A DNA stretch of 34,648 nucleotides from positions 4,915-39,562 of the forward strand of contig PBIV01000015.1 in the NCBI GenBank assembly GCA_002720935.1. The letters are read 5' to 3'. The notes under the pieces are model-generated. The model saw only the letters and a list, made by a program, of their open reading frames with translations, did not search any database and was not told the DNA's origin. Position numbers and translations under genes: made by a program. The stretch comes from Rickettsiales bacterium (lineage in GTDB: Bacteria; Pseudomonadota; Alphaproteobacteria; Micavibrionales; GCA-2720935). Below are positions 712 to 23,581 of this stretch, piece after piece. Position 1 is the first letter of the stretch; each line of letters starts with the position of its first letter.

Positions 712-1407
712 TTAAGCTGCACCAGCTTCTTTTTGAGGATCACGTAGAACATAACCACGCCCCCAAACAGTCTCGATATAATTATCGCCATCTGCTGCTT
801 CTTCTAATTTTTTACGAAGCTTACAAATAAAGACGTCAATAATCTTCACTTCTGGCTCATCCATACCGCCATAAAGGTGGTTTAGGAACATTTCTTTTGT
901 CAAAGTTGTGCCTTTTCTTAAAGAAAGAAGTTCTAAGATTTTATATTCTTTGCCTGTTAAGTGTAGTGGCTTGCCACCAACTTCAACTGTTCTTGCATCC
1001 AAATTGACTGATAATTTACCAGTTTCAATTTTACTTTGTGAATGACCTTTTGAGCGACGAACAATGGCTTGAATACGAGCCAATAATTCACGCTTATCAA
1101 AAGGCTTAACAAGATAGTCATCAGCACCATAGCCAAGACCTTTGATCTTGCTTTCCATCTCGCCTAGACCAGATAAAATCAAAATTGGTGTTTCAACTTT
1201 AGAAGCACGAAGGCGTCTTAATACCTCATATCCATCCATATCAGGAAGGAGTAGATCAAGAACGATGATGTCGTAATCGTATAATTTACCGATTTCTAAA
1301 CCATCTTCTCCCATATCAGTTGAATCAATTACAAATCCTTCTGATTTAAGCATTAACTCAATGCTCTTTGCTGTAGCGCTGTCATCTTCGACCAACAAAA
1401 CTCTCAT
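712..1407 (-). CDS. ctrA: Cell-cycle response regulator CtrA
   Basis: OmpR/PhoB-type response regulator that in alphaproteobacteria controls cell cycle, flagellar and chemotaxis genes. The receiver domain (about 1-115) has the acidic pair D8-D9, the phospho-acceptor D51 in [13 protein letters not shown] and the conserved Lys in [11 protein letters not shown]. The winged-helix DNA-binding domain (about 125-225) ends in [11 protein letters not shown]. The length, 231 residues, and the position of D51 match Caulobacter CtrA, and the protein ends in Ala-Ala, the feature that makes Caulobacter CtrA a ClpXP substrate. The start has AAAGGA about nine bases upstream. It is divergent from fliI, and a TTAA-N7-TTAA box in the shared gap suggests autoregulation. 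In Caulobacter, phosphate arrives from CckA through ChpT; a chpT gene is at 9403-10041. Confidence 0.96.
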
Positions 1408-1499
1408 AATTATAATTCCTTTATAAGTTTGTTATTATTTTTTTAAGATTAATGTGTTTGAACCCTTTGAACCTATATACCTATTGTCGTTAACTTTTG

Positions 1500-1514
1500 T
1501 TAACAAATGGTTAA
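1500..1514. promoter_or_regulatory. CtrA-type binding site in ctrA/fliI divergent promoter
   Basis: TTAACAAATGGTTAA matches the CtrA consensus TTAA-N7-TTAA exactly. It lies 93 bases upstream of the ctrA start and about 130 upstream of fliI. Another GTTAAC stands just before it (1489-1494), separated from the first half-site by six bases, and more single TTAA half-sites follow at 1531, 1564, 1588, 1595, 1605 and 1629. Binding is inferred from sequence only; the region is AT-rich, so the single half-sites carry little weight. Confidence 0.65.
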
Positions 1515-1642
1515 AAAACGATGAAAAAGGTTAATTTTCTATAAAGAGAACAAGACGAACGTCTTAATTTCTATTATAATGAAAAGGTTAATATTTAAAA
1601 GTTTTTAATTTCATTTTATCAAAAAAAGTTAATTTCACAGCC

Positions 1643-3477: not shown

Positions 3478-4293
3478 TTAAGCTTGATCTTTCTCATAAA
3501 GACCTCTTTGATCTGGAACGGTTTTATATTTATCCGTAATACCGATGACCGTTTCCGCACCACCTAAGAATAAATAACCATCATTATTGAGAATATTAGA
3601 CATATTTTCTAACACAGTTTTTTTGGTTGGCTGATCAAAATAAATCAAAACATTACGACACATAATAATATCAAATTTACCAAGTGAGCTTAGCGGGTGT
3701 AAAAGATTGAAATGACTATATTTTATCATTGATTTAATATCATCATTAATCTGCCATTTTTCATCAATCTGCTTAAAATATTTCACCAACAACGTAATGG
3801 GAAGCCCTCTTTGAACTTCGAATTGTGAATATAGCCCTTGTTTTGCGACTTCCAAAATATCTTTTGAAATATCTGTTCCAACAATCTCGAAATTCCAACC
3901 CTGATTAAGCCAGCCAGCCTCTTTGATTACCATAGCGAGCGTGTATGGTTCTTGTCCACTTGAACAAGCCGCAGACCAAATTCTGATTTTTTTTGTTGCC
4001 TGATTTGTTTCCATCAGTTTCGGCATCACATGATTTTTGAAAATATCAAACGGTCTGGTATCCCTAAAAAATGATGTTTCATTTGTTGTCATTGCCTCAA
4101 CAACATCCCAAGCTTCTGGGGATTTTTGATTGGCTCTAACACGGGACGCCAACATAGAAATATCGGCTAAATTATATTTATCAATAACAGGGCGCAATCT
4201 TGATTCAAGAAGATAGCACTTATCCATACCGATCACGAGACCTGATGTCTTTTTCAACACATCTTGGAATGCTTCAAAATCACTTTCTTCCAT
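3478..4293 (-). CDS. cheR: Chemotaxis protein methyltransferase CheR
   Basis: SAM-dependent methyltransferase that methylates glutamates on chemoreceptors during adaptation. The N-terminal helical domain (about 1-75) is followed by the conserved TTNETSFFRD segment. The Rossmann-type methyltransferase domain has IRIWSAACSSGQEPYTLAM (SAM-binding), VGTDISKDIL (acidic ribose-binding residue) and FDIIMCRNVLIYFD. The length of 271 residues is typical. AAGGA stands about eleven bases before the ATG. It is the last gene of the minus-strand cheA-W-Y-B-R operon. The protein lacks the C-terminal receptor-tethering pentapeptide domain or TPR repeats seen in some relatives. Confidence 0.96.
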   Translation of the reverse strand: MEESDFEAFQDVLKKTSGLVIGMDKCYLLESRLRPVIDKYNLADISMLASRVRANQKSPEAWDVVEAMTTNETSFFRDTRPFDIFKNHVMPKLMETNQATKKIRIWSAACSSGQEPYTLAMVIKEAGWLNQGWNFEIVGTDISKDILEVAKQGLYSQFEVQRGLPITLLVKYFKQIDEKWQINDDIKSMIKYSHFNLLHPLSSLGKFDIIMCRNVLIYFDQPTKKTVLENMSNILNNDGYLFLGGAETVIGITDKYKTVPDQRGLYEKDQA

Positions 4294-4327
4294 ATCGACA
4301 CCGTTTCCTTAATTAATTTACCAAAAA

Positions 4328-5497
4328 TTACATCGTAGCTATTTTTTTAATTCTCGGCCCAACCTCATCAAGAGGCAAAACATCAAAACAAATATTGGCC
4401 ATTGCAACAGCGCCAGGCATACCCCAAACAACTGATGTTTTCTTATCTTGCGCTAAAACCATACCACCATTATCGGCTAGTGTTTTGCATGATTTTTGAC
4501 CATCAGATCCCATACCCGTTAAAATCGTTGCCAAGACTGACGAGCCAAAAACCCCCATCACGGAACGCAACATAGGGTCGACCGCTGGCCTACAAAAATT
4601 CTCTGGTTCGTCTTTATTAAGCCTGATGACTTTATTCCCGTCTTCCTTAACAACCGTCATATGATAACCACCGGGCGCTAAATAAATACGCCCCCCAACA
4701 ACAACCTCGCCTTCAACACCTTCTGCACAAGTCACACCTGTTTGTTTTGTAATATGTTCGGCCAAAATCGCTGTGAATGTTTCTGGCATATGTTGGGTTA
4801 AGAAAATTGGTTGTTGGACATCTTTTAAATGCTCAATAACCCTAAATAAAGCTTGTGGCCCACCTGTTGAACTCCCGATTACAAGAGCTTGAGGTCTAAA
4901 TATTTTTGTATCAGTTTTTAGTTGAAAGTTTTCAGTTAAGACAATCGGCGCTGTTTTTGGTGCCGTTGTTGCTGGTGTCGTTGCACGTGGGATAGCTCTT
5001 TCACTAGGCGATGCCGTAGCTTTAGGCGCTTCTTTTTTACCCGACTTGATACGGGCTTCTTTCACAGTTTGGCCAAGAACTTTAATCTTGTTTAATAAGT
5101 CTCTTTTAAAATCATCCGCAGATGCTAAATCGCGTGTTGTTGATGGTTTTGTGAGACATTCAGATGCCCCCTTTTTAAGGGCTTCTAAAGTTACTTGTGC
5201 ATTATGCTTTGTCAATGTTGATGCAATAATAACTTTCACATCTGGATCAACCTCTAACAATTTTGGCAGAGCTGTAATCCCATCCATAACGGGCATTTCA
5301 ATATCCAAAACAATGATATCAGTGGGATTATTTTGCAAACTTCGAATAGCCATCTCACCATTCGAAACAGATGCAACAACCTCAATATTTCCATCGGCTT
5401 GCAAAGCTCTGGAAAATAGACCTCTTACAACCGCCGAGTCATCAACGATCATAACACGCACTTTGTTATTTGCACTAATTAGAGAATTCATGTTCAA
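4328..5497 (-). CDS. cheB: Protein-glutamate methylesterase CheB
   Basis: Response regulator that removes methyl groups from, or deamidates, chemoreceptors. The receiver domain (about 13-130) has D19-D20, the phospho-acceptor D65 in IIVLDIEMPVMDG and a conserved Lys in CLTKPS. A linker of about 45 residues rich in Ala, Pro and Thr follows. The C-terminal methylesterase domain (about 200-387) shows the catalytic triad motifs: Ser in VIGSSTGGPQAL, His in LTQHMPETFT and Asp in GMGSDGQK. The length of 389 is slightly long because of the linker. Phosphorylation by CheA is expected. It sits between cheY and cheR. Confidence 0.96.
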   Translation of the reverse strand: MNMNSLISANNKVRVMIVDDSAVVRGLFSRALQADGNIEVVASVSNGEMAIRSLQNNPTDIIVLDIEMPVMDGITALPKLLEVDPDVKVIIASTLTKHNAQVTLEALKKGASECLTKPSTTRDLASADDFKRDLLNKIKVLGQTVKEARIKSGKKEAPKATASPSERAIPRATTPATTAPKTAPIVLTENFQLKTDTKIFRPQALVIGSSTGGPQALFRVIEHLKDVQQPIFLTQHMPETFTAILAEHITKQTGVTCAEGVEGEVVVGGRIYLAPGGYHMTVVKEDGNKVIRLNKDEPENFCRPAVDPMLRSVMGVFGSSVLATILTGMGSDGQKSCKTLADNGGMVLAQDKKTSVVWGMPGAVAMANICFDVLPLDEVGPRIKKIATM

Positions 5498-5524
5498 AAT
5501 TGCCCTTTTTAAAAAACGATAAGA

Positions 5525-5902
5525 TTAATCGCCACTATAAAGGCCAACTTGAACCAACTTATTTTTAATGATTTCGCCATCAAATGGCTTCATAATATAT
5601 TCATTCGCACCAGCACTCAAAGCTTCTTGAATAAATTTAATATCGTTTTCTGTGGTACAGAATAGAACGATCGGCTGATCTCCGCCTGGTGTTTGTCGAA
5701 GCTCTTTTAAAAACTCAATCCCCGTCATGACAGGCATATTCCAGTCCAATAAAACAGCATCAGGCATTCCTTGACCAGTGCAGTAATCTAATGCAACCTG
5801 ACCATCCTCTGCCTCATCAACTTTGAAGTTGAGTTCCTCTAAAATTTTTCTAGCAACTTTACGAACAACGCCACTATCATCGACCACAAGAAAGGTTTTC
5901 AT
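5525..5902 (-). CDS. cheY: Chemotaxis response regulator CheY
   Basis: Single-domain receiver protein of 125 residues that carries phosphate from CheA to the flagellar switch. It has D8-D9, phospho-acceptor D53 within VLLDWNMPVMTG (DWNMP is typical of CheY), the Thr in LFCTTEND and the Lys in IMKPFDGE. AGGAAG lies about seven bases before the ATG. It is in the che operon eleven bases after cheW. No cheZ is seen in the window, so signal termination may rely on the CheA-fused receiver acting as a phosphate sink or on genes elsewhere; this last point is inference. Confidence 0.95.
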   Translation of the reverse strand: MKTFLVVDDSGVVRKVARKILEELNFKVDEAEDGQVALDYCTGQGMPDAVLLDWNMPVMTGIEFLKELRQTPGGDQPIVLFCTTENDIKFIQEALSAGANEYIMKPFDGEIIKNKLVQVGLYSGD

Positions 5903-5913
5903 TTTTTAACTTC

Positions 5914-6441
5914 CTATTCTCTTTCTAATATTGGTGCATCCGAAGGATACACAGATTTTAAAAGGCGTGCCACATCAAGCACAACCAAAAGATCTTTATC
6001 AAGGCGATAAATTCCCCCTGAAATTTCTTTCCAAACTGGTGATAGGTTTGGAGGATTTTTTTCATACTCATCTTGAGACAAAGCCAAAACATCGCCGACA
6101 TTATCAACGACCAATGAATAAAGGTCATCGCCATTCTCAACGACAACACTCATACTTGAATCAACATCCTCTTGATCAACCGTGTCATTTAAACGAACTC
6201 TAACATCAATTGCCGTTACAATACGACCACGCAAATTAAGCGATCCCGCAATCTCTGGCGGGGCTAAAGGAATATGCGTTACAGTTTGATTATCTAATAC
6301 ATCTTGCACTTGCATAACGGGTATACCAAAAAGTTGTCCAGAAATATACATTGTCAAAAATTCTTGACGTTGCTGAAGGTCTATATAACCTTTCTCACCC
6401 ATAACTCTTTGTTTTTCTGCGACACGCGTTGCTGATTGCAT
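5914..6441 (-). CDS. cheW: Chemotaxis coupling protein CheW
   Basis: Adaptor that links chemoreceptors to CheA. It is a single CheW domain of 175 residues: EFLTMYISGQLFGIPVMQVQ starts the fold, then LNLRGRIVTAIDVRVRLN, which is the signature segment, and the second half carries LVVDNVGDVLAL. An N-terminal extension of about 20 residues precedes the domain. GAGG seven bases before the start lies inside the 3' end of cheA, and only two bases separate the two genes, so translation is probably coupled. Confidence 0.95.
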   Translation of the reverse strand: MQSATRVAEKQRVMGEKGYIDLQQRQEFLTMYISGQLFGIPVMQVQDVLDNQTVTHIPLAPPEIAGSLNLRGRIVTAIDVRVRLNDTVDQEDVDSSMSVVVENGDDLYSLVVDNVGDVLALSQDEYEKNPPNLSPVWKEISGGIYRLDKDLLVVLDVARLLKSVYPSDAPILERE

Positions 6442-6443
6442 GA

Positions 6444-9254
6444 TTAAACCTCAACTTTCTCATTAGAATACTGAGTCTTCTTTAAGACTTGTTTAACAGC
6501 ATCCATAATTTCGTCTTTGTCAAATTTTGCAACATAATCATCAAAACCGACACTGCGTCCACGTTCAAAATCTTCTTCTGTCGCATGTGATGACAAAGCA
6601 ATCATTGGAATTTTTGCCCATGGTTGTTTTGAATGTCTAACTTTTTGTGCAAAATCAAACCCAGTCATTTCTGGCATTTCAATATCACTAATAATCAGAT
6701 CAAATTTTCTATCTTTTTCAAACAGATCAAGAGCTTCAAGCGGGCTCTCTACAGCTGTAACCGCATAACCACCGATTGATAATAATGGCACTAACATATT
6801 TCTAAAGAATGGCGAGTCATCGACCAATAGAACACGTTTTGATAAATCATTTTCAAATGGGTCATCTGTTTCATTAATCGCAAACCAGTCTTTATGGCCT
6901 CTTGATAAATAATGGCTAACATTAATAATATCTGTTGCCTTGCCATTGATAATCGCACTTCCAAATGTGCTGTCTTGGGCTGTTGATGTTTCAATTGCAA
7001 CATATTCCTCAACGATATCAACAATCTCATCAACGACAAGCCCCATTGAACGTAAATGATCAGAGAACACAATGGCTGCCCTCTCTTTACCTTCAACTTT
7101 AACTTGAACCTGATTATTAAATGGAACTAGTGGCATTAATTGACCACGATATTGGATAACATGATTATTATTAGATATTTCGATATCTTTATCTTCAAAA
7201 ACCTCTAAGCGTGCAACCAATGATAATGGAACCGCCTTTGGTGCTCCTTCTCCAGCACGGAAGACAAGAAGAGATGTCTTTTTATTCTCCGCAGATGATG
7301 CCTGCTCAAGAGCTGTTTTTTCTGACGCATCAGATACGCTCAGATCGCCAGATGCATTCGCAATACCATTTGGATCCAAGATCATGATAACGCTACCATC
7401 TCCAAGAATAGTATTTCCTGCGAATAAATCAATATGACGCAAGATTGGTGCAACTGGTTTTACAACAATCTCTTCTGTATCAAAGACTTTATTCACGATA
7501 ATACCAAAAGTATAAGTGCCAACTTGTGTGACAACAATATATTTGCCGTCATCTTCCATGCTGTTTGTTAAAGACTTCAAGTCTTCTTTAACAGCTGGTT
7601 GCTTTTCATTTTCTAAAGACGCAATCTCATTTTTCAAATCTTGGTTGTGCTCTTCAATTGATTTTTTATCTTCAACGATTTTTTTCTTTAATTTACGTTG
7701 ATCTAACTTCAACATTTTGTTTAATGAAATAAGAGGCAACAAACGATCACGAAGGCGTAAAACCGGCGTGCCTTTGATAAACTCAATTCTTTGGTCACCC
7801 TGGTTAGAAGCGCGCACCAATTCTTGAACACTTAATTGTGGGATCGCGTATTTTTCTTCGCCCGCTTCAACGATTAGTGCTGATACAATCGCCAATGTCA
7901 GTGGGATTTTAATAGTAAATGTTGAGCCCTGACCTTCTTTAGATTTAAGATCAATCGTACCACCAATTTTCTCAATATTGGTTCGAACAACATCCATACC
8001 AACACCACGCCCAGATACAGCCGTTACTTTTTCAGCTGTTGAAAATCCTGCGTGAAAAATAAATTGTTGAATTTGGCTTTCGCTCATCTCTGCTAATTGA
8101 GATTCTGTGGCAGCACCATTCTCAATCATTTTCTTTTTAATTTTTTCTGTTGATAGCCCCTTACCATCATCACTAATTTGGATAATGATATGTCCACCCT
8201 CATGATAAGCATTTAAAAGAACGGTTCCTGTCTCTGGCTTACCAACTGCCAATCTATCCGCGGGATCTTCGATCCCGTGATCGGCAGAATTACGAACCAT
8301 ATGTGTCAATGGATCTTTAATTAAATCTAAGACTTGGCGATCAAGTTCTGTATCCTGACCACGCATTTCTAAATCAATTTTCTTACCCAATTCATTGGAT
8401 AAATCACGAATAATTCTTGGTAATTTTGACCACGCATTGCCAATCGGCTGCATTCGCGTCTTCATAACCCCTTCTTGAAGGTCAGAGACAACATGGTTTA
8501 ATCTTTGTAATGGTGCTGTAAATTCGCTCTCGCGCTGGTTTCTTAAAATCTGTAAAAGTTGGTTTCTTGTTAAAACAAGCTCTGAGACCATTGTCATCAA
8601 GTCTTCTAGAACATCAACATTTACACGAAGCGATTGAGTAACAGCAACTTGTTCTTTTTTTGCTTGAGGCTCTTGGCTCTTGGCAACTGCTTTTGGTGCA
8701 GGAGGCGCAACAGCTTTAACCTCATCTTCGTCATCGTCTCCATCTTCGCCTTCATCGTCTTCGTCTTCAGCTTTTTGCTGACTTGATTCAGAAAGACCAA
8801 GAGCATCTGCAACAGCAGCTGTCTGGCTTGCAGGAACAGGGGTGAAAATATCATCTTCTTCTGGCTCTTCCCCAGAAGCTGCCTTTTCAATGGCATCAAG
8901 TTTTGCGATTAATTCACTGTCATCGCCATCTCCTTCGCCACCGGTTTGTTCGATTAAATCGACAATTTCTTTAATGCGATCAAGAGATTCTAAAATAATT
9001 GTCACTGAATCACTTTGAACTCCTAAAACGCCATCTCGGTACAGACCGAACACATTTTCTGCGTGGTGCGCAACTTTCTCTAATCTTGACAACCCTAAGA
9101 AACCACAGGTTCCTTTTACAGTATGGACAACTCTAAAAATATTGCCCAAAAGCGCTTGGTCATTTGGATTTTGTTCTAACTTAATAATATCTTGGTCAAG
9201 AATGTCTAAGCTTTCTCTTGTTTCAACCAAAAACTCATTAATTAAATCATCCAT
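6444..9254 (-). CDS. cheA: Hybrid chemotaxis histidine kinase CheA with C-terminal receiver
   Basis: Kinase that receives signals from chemoreceptors and phosphorylates CheY and CheB. Domains in order: HPt (about 1-110) with phospho-acceptor H44 in VVHTVKGTCGFLGL; an acidic, then Ala/Pro/Lys-rich linker (about 125-205) where the usual CheY-binding P2 domain is not evident; dimerisation domain (about 206-270); ATPase with N-box HMVRNSADHGIED and G boxes DDGKGL and GRGVGMDVV; two CheW-like domains (about 455-650 and 665-800); and a receiver (about 812-930) with acceptor D857. The first CheW-like domain is interrupted by about 55 charged, coiled-coil-like residues. In the receiver the Lys-Pro pair is Lys-Phe (VAKFDKDE). 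The length of 936 is long for CheA. AAGGA precedes the start, and a CtrA-type box lies upstream. Confidence 0.95.
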   Translation of the reverse strand: MDDLINEFLVETRESLDILDQDIIKLEQNPNDQALLGNIFRVVHTVKGTCGFLGLSRLEKVAHHAENVFGLYRDGVLGVQSDSVTIILESLDRIKEIVDLIEQTGGEGDGDDSELIAKLDAIEKAASGEEPEEDDIFTPVPASQTAAVADALGLSESSQQKAEDEDDEGEDGDDDEDEVKAVAPPAPKAVAKSQEPQAKKEQVAVTQSLRVNVDVLEDLMTMVSELVLTRNQLLQILRNQRESEFTAPLQRLNHVVSDLQEGVMKTRMQPIGNAWSKLPRIIRDLSNELGKKIDLEMRGQDTELDRQVLDLIKDPLTHMVRNSADHGIEDPADRLAVGKPETGTVLLNAYHEGGHIIIQISDDGKGLSTEKIKKKMIENGAATESQLAEMSESQIQQFIFHAGFSTAEKVTAVSGRGVGMDVVRTNIEKIGGTIDLKSKEGQGSTFTIKIPLTLAIVSALIVEAGEEKYAIPQLSVQELVRASNQGDQRIEFIKGTPVLRLRDRLLPLISLNKMLKLDQRKLKKKIVEDKKSIEEHNQDLKNEIASLENEKQPAVKEDLKSLTNSMEDDGKYIVVTQVGTYTFGIIVNKVFDTEEIVVKPVAPILRHIDLFAGNTILGDGSVIMILDPNGIANASGDLSVSDASEKTALEQASSAENKKTSLLVFRAGEGAPKAVPLSLVARLEVFEDKDIEISNNNHVIQYRGQLMPLVPFNNQVQVKVEGKERAAIVFSDHLRSMGLVVDEIVDIVEEYVAIETSTAQDSTFGSAIINGKATDIINVSHYLSRGHKDWFAINETDDPFENDLSKRVLLVDDSPFFRNMLVPLLSIGGYAVTAVESPLEALDLFEKDRKFDLIISDIEMPEMTGFDFAQKVRHSKQPWAKIPMIALSSHATEEDFERGRSVGFDDYVAKFDKDEIMDAVKQVLKKTQYSNEKVEV

Positions 9255-9335
9255 ATTTCGTTCCTTTTGTAATCAAAGATATAAGAAATTGCACTGTTCA
9301 GATTCGTGACAATGTATAGAATATACGCTCAGATA

Positions 9336-9350
9336 TTAAGCTTACATTAA
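9336..9350. promoter_or_regulatory. CtrA-type binding site upstream of cheA
   Basis: TTAAGCTTACATTAA, followed by C, is an exact TTAA-N7-TTAA match located 82 bases upstream of the cheA start, in the 148-base gap between chpT and cheA. A GATTC (GANTC, the CcrM methylation target) lies at 9301-9305 between the box and the gene. The position suggests direct CtrA control of the chemotaxis operon. No binding data are available from sequence. Confidence 0.6.
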
Positions 9351-9402
9351 CAAAGAAAAATTTGTTATACTTATATTATACTCCAAGGTGGTTAACACAA
9401 TA

Positions 9403-10041
9403 TTACGAAGCCGTTAAATGTATAAAAACCTTGTTTTCTCCATCTTTTTTATGATCTAACAACACACCATACTGTTCACAAATCAACTTAGTAACACGAC
9501 CATGAACCGTTTTAGGGTCAAGTTCATCTTCAGATAAATCAGAAAACGCAGCCGGTAACATATTTTCTTTAAATGTTAAACGATCGCCAGCAACTTCAAT
9601 TTCAAATTTTAACGGCTCATCTTGAATAACTCTAAAGGTCATTGTACCGCCAATACCAAGACCATCGGCCGCTAAAAACATAGCATTAAGCAGACATTTC
9701 AACATTCCTCTTGGCGGTAAAACAGATGTCAAAACGGGGGCGTCTTCCCAAATAAAATCAGCCTTTCCAAGTGCCATATATTCACTAAAAATTGATTTAA
9801 TATCAGCTGGCTTGACATCACTGCCAGCACCAGAAGCACCATAGGCCAAGCGATATAATTTTAAATAAGCACTTGATTTCTTGGCACTATCCGCAATCAA
9901 ATCAACAGCATCAGCACCATCAACAAGCCCCATCTCTTCGATTAACTCAACACCATTTGAAATTGCACCAACAGGGCTAATTAAGTCATGGCAAATGCGT
10001 GAGGATAAAAGTTCTAATATCTTTGTGGAAAACTGTGTCAT
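9403..10041 (-). CDS. chpT: Histidine phosphotransferase ChpT
   Basis: Dimeric phosphotransferase that passes phosphate from CckA to CtrA and CpdR. The N-terminal helical hairpin has LSSRICHDLISPVGAISNGVEL, with H18 as the expected phospho-acceptor; this LxxRxxHDLxxPxGAxxNG pattern is characteristic of ChpT. The C-terminal part (about 90-212) resembles a degenerate GHKL ATPase fold without clear nucleotide-binding G boxes, as known for this family. The length of 212 is within the family range. It is transcribed in the same direction as cheA, 148 bases upstream of it, with a CtrA-type box between the two. No cckA is in the window. Confidence 0.88.
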   Translation of the reverse strand: MTQFSTKILELLSSRICHDLISPVGAISNGVELIEEMGLVDGADAVDLIADSAKKSSAYLKLYRLAYGASGAGSDVKPADIKSIFSEYMALGKADFIWEDAPVLTSVLPPRGMLKCLLNAMFLAADGLGIGGTMTFRVIQDEPLKFEIEVAGDRLTFKENMLPAAFSDLSEDELDPKTVHGRVTKLICEQYGVLLDHKKDGENKVFIHLTAS

Positions 10042-10406: not shown

Positions 10407-10449
10407 TGATCTTAAATATTTCTTTAAAATCAATAAGTTTAAGTTTTAA

Positions 10450-23548: not shown

Positions 23549-23581
23549 GCTTAAAATTTAAAGATTAATTTAAAGCTAATA

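Follow-up and report, generated by a model that had tools for sequence, protein, structure and literature searches.

A predicted CtrA-dependent promoter ahead of the chemotaxis operon cheA-cheW-cheY-cheB-cheR in the order of Micavibrio

The window analysed here is a stretch of 34,648 nucleotides (contig PBIV01000015.1, positions 4,915 to 39,562) from a Rickettsiales bacterium assigned by GTDB to the order Micavibrionales. According to Pfam, the genes cheA, cheW, cheY, cheB, and cheR all lie in one direction behind chpT, and a gene for a CtrA-type response regulator adjoins fliI (Table 1). These identities had been proposed in the initial annotation of the window and are borne out by domain and NCBIfam matches. 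The ctrA product passes the NCBIfam CtrA equivalog model NF045991 with 420 bits against a cut-off of 350, indicating that CtrA is encoded in the window's own genome, and its receiver domain matches that of CtrA in PDB 4qpj. The matches of chpT to the NCBIfam ChpT models were below their cut-offs. CheA (6444-9254) carries a C-terminal receiver domain at residues 808-921, beyond the usual CheA domains.

Table 1. Genes and predicted promoter elements at the chpT-cheA locus and the presumed regulator gene (window coordinates).
Feature	Position	Strand	Basis
cheA-cheW-cheY-cheB-cheR, presumed target operon	3478..9254	-	Pfam, ORFs
chpT, phosphotransferase of the CtrA relay	9403..10041	-	Pfam HPTransfase
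ctrA, presumed regulator	712..1407	-	NCBIfam NF045991, PDB 4qpj
Site 1, GTAA-N7-TTAACC, copy matching the conserved CtrA-type site of the relatives	9390..9406	-	matrix, R1, shuffles
-10 element TATAAT of site 1, family register, predicted start ~9368	9375..9380	-	alignment of relatives
Site 2, box quoted in the initial annotation, GTTAATGTAAGCTTAAT on the cheA strand	9335..9351	-	exact N7 pair
Putative -10 element of site 2, TATATT, nearer to its box by one base than most relatives have it; start predicted at ~9313	9320..9325	-	
Leader GANTC (GATTC), past both predicted starts	9301..9305	.	not conserved

The initial annotation had drawn attention to an exact TTAA-N7-TTAA pair, TTAAGCTTACATTAAC, as a CtrA box in front of cheA. 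Coordinates re-read from the window place this box (site 2) at 9336-9351, separated by 81 bases from the ATG of cheA (complement of 9254), and the GANTC site described between box and gene is the GATTC at 9301-9305. A window scan located exact N7 pairs in intergenic DNA at 1500 and 9336 only, as had been noted by eye; the N8 pairs at 10412 and 32091 were also correctly placed, and a third intergenic N8 pair lies at 23558. The exactness of the pair is not what carries the case. Such a pair arose in 168 of 5000 dinucleotide shuffles (3.4%) of the 148-base chpT-cheA gap, and at least two across all intergenic DNA in 153 of 500 shuffle sets. There were 5 N7 pairs in the window versus 2-7 at other spacings, and three of the N7 pairs fall within genes (6482, 31032, and 34220). 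In the whole genome we counted 150 exact N7 pairs, where base composition alone predicts about 147 by our own estimate. With no enrichment in genome, window or intergenic DNA, the exact pair was dropped as evidence.

The comparison of relatives was more informative. The order was searched with CheA, and upstream regions were read at the loci recovered and in additional stretches, giving 62 distinct gaps with chpT directly before cheA, the window's own being one of them. On the cheA strand, TAA-N7-TTAAY was present in 36 of the 62 gaps, versus a mean of 2.2 and a maximum of 6 in 200 sets of shuffles. Other spacings from 3 to 12 occurred in 0-6 of these gaps each, and the opposite-strand form in 5 gaps versus 2.2 expected. 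Thus, where the initial annotation had named absence of the motif from relatives with the same gene order as a refutation, the motif is present, with N7 spacing and on one strand only. The conserved directional motif lies on the cheA (minus) strand, TTAATGTAAGCTTAAT; the plus strand had been quoted earlier. Related genomes are not independent, although the spacing and strand controls share the same relatedness. Outside the window's genome the motif sites span about 20 other genera and three other families, as counted from genus labels, and GC-rich genomes are among the relatives that keep it. It was also found in 9 of 23 regions without an adjacent chpT, and therefore goes with cheA. The 46 aligned sites read TNGTAAC-N6-TTAAY and share a downstream -10 element, GGCATNNT, at constant spacing; 37 of them have A at +26 and 42 have T at +30. 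The sites, their conservation, their spacing, and their strand are direct observations.

Against CtrA control of cheA, a clear site was absent from approximately 40% of the 62 chpT-cheA gaps. No CtrA-type site was found before cheA in genomes G046 and G053 (loci L023 and L024) or at loci L088 and L089, and in these four cheA closely follows another gene. G053 is presumed to be Micavibrio aeruginosavorus ARL-13, so Micavibrio itself probably lacks this cheA site. When the genome collection was scanned, ChpT gave no matches and CheA returned one distant relative and one unrelated match.

Both strands of the whole window were scored with a matrix trained on 25 relatives and not on this genome. 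Its best score, 16.7 bits (9408-9373, cheA strand), fell on a site missed in the initial annotation, GTAATATTGTGTTAACC at 9406-9390 (site 1), and the next score, 8.4, lay within a gene. Site 1 was again the top match of R1, a covariance model of sequence alone derived from the same alignment. It overlaps the chpT stop codon, which supplies its first half, and its TATAAT, at positions 25-30 counted from the first base of TAA, aligns with the CATNNT or TATNNT of the relatives. Its score was reached in none of 5000 shuffles of the gap and, when the stop codon was kept in place, in 4 of 20000; it was reached in 3 of 150 shuffles of the whole window, which counts against the site, as does the overlap of its first half with a stop codon. 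The combined pattern of box and -10 element had three matches in the genome, site 1 among them, and the reversed control also had three, so this pattern alone is no proof. A two-block matrix with free spacing was rejected as too unspecific, since three intragenic sites outscored both candidates. The earlier proposal that CtrA directly controls cheA is well supported by sequence comparison, with the correction that the best-matching site is 9390-9406 and not the quoted box.

We consider it probable that transcription of cheA-W-Y-B-R starts from a CtrA-activated promoter within the chpT-cheA gap. From the sequence we infer CtrA binding, activation, and a choice between the two sites. Phosphorylated CtrA, bound to an N7-spaced site covering the -35 region, would recruit RNA polymerase to a -10 element beginning 10-11 bases past the box. 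Site 1 (9406-9390, with TATAAT at 9380-9375) is most likely the main copy, and site 2 (9351-9335) would be a second site in the leader that may give rise to an additional start or modulate the one of site 1.

The roles of the two sites could be reversed, such that CtrA acts on cheA through site 2 and site 1 is a coincidence at the chpT stop codon, which we regard as unlikely. Both have half sites 7 bases apart, and site 2 is the exact pair; its box-only score of 11.9, third in the window, exceeds the 10.3 of site 1, and it lies 96 bases from cheA, near the family median of 103.5, whereas site 1 lies at 151. Allowing the spacing to differ by one base brings the two sites level (13.4 and 12.7). 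However, only site 1 has its -10 element at the family distance. Site 2 offers only TATATT, one base too close, and because of this its whole-promoter score with the relatives-only matrix is -9.9, versus 16.7 for site 1; the rarity of the site 1 score among shuffles with the stop codon fixed also argues against coincidence. An exact consensus match can thus draw attention to the site with the weaker support. Site 1, the upstream one, and site 2 lie 56 bp apart and might instead form a tandem pair, with two starts or with a cooperative or roadblock arrangement. Two box-level sites arose in 2 of 10000 shuffles of this gap, and a single CtrA site in Caulobacter can activate one start and repress another (PMC4287350), but no other gap of the order has a second site at the same threshold and the exact second site occurs in this genome only. 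We therefore hold the tandem arrangement to be a tentative possibility.

That both sites are chance matches in AT-rich DNA, with cheA read through from chpT, appears very improbable: the exact TTAA-N7-TTAA pair is indeed no commoner than expected in the genome or across intergenic DNA, but the conservation is specific to spacing and strand, includes GC-rich relatives, and comes with a matching -10 element. OmpR-type regulators other than CtrA could bind TTAA-like sites, and this counts against the CtrA reading. A conserved promoter served by another member of this family would have many response regulators per genome to draw on (loose candidates counted). However, full CtrA sites in Caulobacter are known to have the form TAA-N7-TTAAC (PMC4287350), nearly all genomes of the order have CtrA (129 of 142, and 97 of the 98 good ones), and chpT, the gene for the CtrA phosphotransferase, adjoins cheA in most of the genomes compared, all of which makes another regulator improbable.

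The predicted architecture is similar to that of mapped CtrA promoters. In Caulobacter crescentus, the full sites of CtrA-activated promoters begin near -35/-39, with the half sites of TTAA-N7-TTAA 7 bases apart over the -35 region (PMC4287350), as predicted at cheA. Whereas the Caulobacter full site is TTAA-N7-TTAA, the family consensus found here is GTAAC-N6-TTAAY, and both start and binding are predicted. In Rhodobacter (Cereibacter) sphaeroides, the mapped distance from box end to start is 23 nt and the A at -11 is invariant (PMC6180460). If the conserved A of the family is taken as -11, the box would likewise end 23 nt before the start, and it would begin near -35/-39. Those fla2 promoters differ in that they drive flagellar genes, two have a 6-base spacing, and their starts were mapped, while those given here are predictions.

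The GANTC site was tried as a part of the promoter, or as the mark of a CcrM-methylation-dependent one, and dropped. GANTC occurs in 16 of 38 gaps at varying places, and the GATTC here lies downstream of both predicted starts, just past that of site 2. The window as a whole is strongly depleted in GANTC (36 sites versus 112 expected from shuffles), which fits a genome with CcrM-type methylation.

The region upstream of ctrA has a different geometry. The initial annotation had reported an N7 box in the ctrA/fliI gap, and an exact N7 pair is indeed there; it is part of an N6 array, and the N7 site is not conserved in relatives. TTAA pairs at N6 spacing were found upstream of ctrA in all 30 sampled genomes (L129-L158), where 1.7 were expected, and often form an array such as GTTAACcttGTTAATatttGTTAA; an exact N7 pair was present in 3 of the 30. 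In the window (1490-1524), TTAA occurs at 1490, 1500, and 1511, of which only the N7 part had been seen earlier. This N6 spacing counts against the CtrA reading of the N7 site at cheA.

A possible wider regulon in this genome was probed with R1, with a prefilter that left out the cheA site itself and with E-values of 0.15 or weaker. Weak matches (L097, L098, L102, and L108) lie before genes for a PAS-GGDEF-EAL protein, an MCP-domain protein, a PilS-like pilin, and DotI/IcmL of type IVB secretion. In relatives, R1 matches lie before cheA, an MCP-like sensor gene, and a PilB-type ATPase gene. That these matches represent a CtrA regulon is plausible, and they are suggestive only.

Chemotaxis genes are documented to be under CtrA control in Caulobacter (PMC2877005) and Phaeobacter inhibens (PMC12363192); such control is cited for Rhodobacter capsulatus in PMC4046655 and is partly documented in Sinorhizobium (PMC4433202). 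In Phaeobacter inhibens and other alphaproteobacteria, chemotaxis genes depend on the CckA-ChpT-CtrA relay (PMC12363192; PMC2877005; PMC4046655). Whereas that dependence was shown by mutants, it is predicted here from sequence, for a promoter directly before cheA and in another order. In Micavibrio aeruginosavorus, flagellar and chemotaxis genes are on when the bacterium hunts and off when it is attached (PMC3189940), and none of the literature searched names CtrA and Micavibrio together. Regulation of chemotaxis by CtrA is thus known elsewhere, and its predicted form is newly traced here in the order of Micavibrio. More speculatively, CtrA might be the switch of the motile, prey-seeking programme in this order, firing cheA through an N7 promoter (a tandem pair in this genome) and reading its own gene through a separate N6 TTAA array, so that two geometries would part targets from autoregulation; we put this forward as a doubtful but possible scheme. 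CtrA becomes a specific candidate for testing in this order, even though the presumed Micavibrio is without this cheA site. The finding would add an order best known for its bacterial predators to those with CtrA-controlled chemotaxis, and it fits the view of motility as an old role of CtrA.
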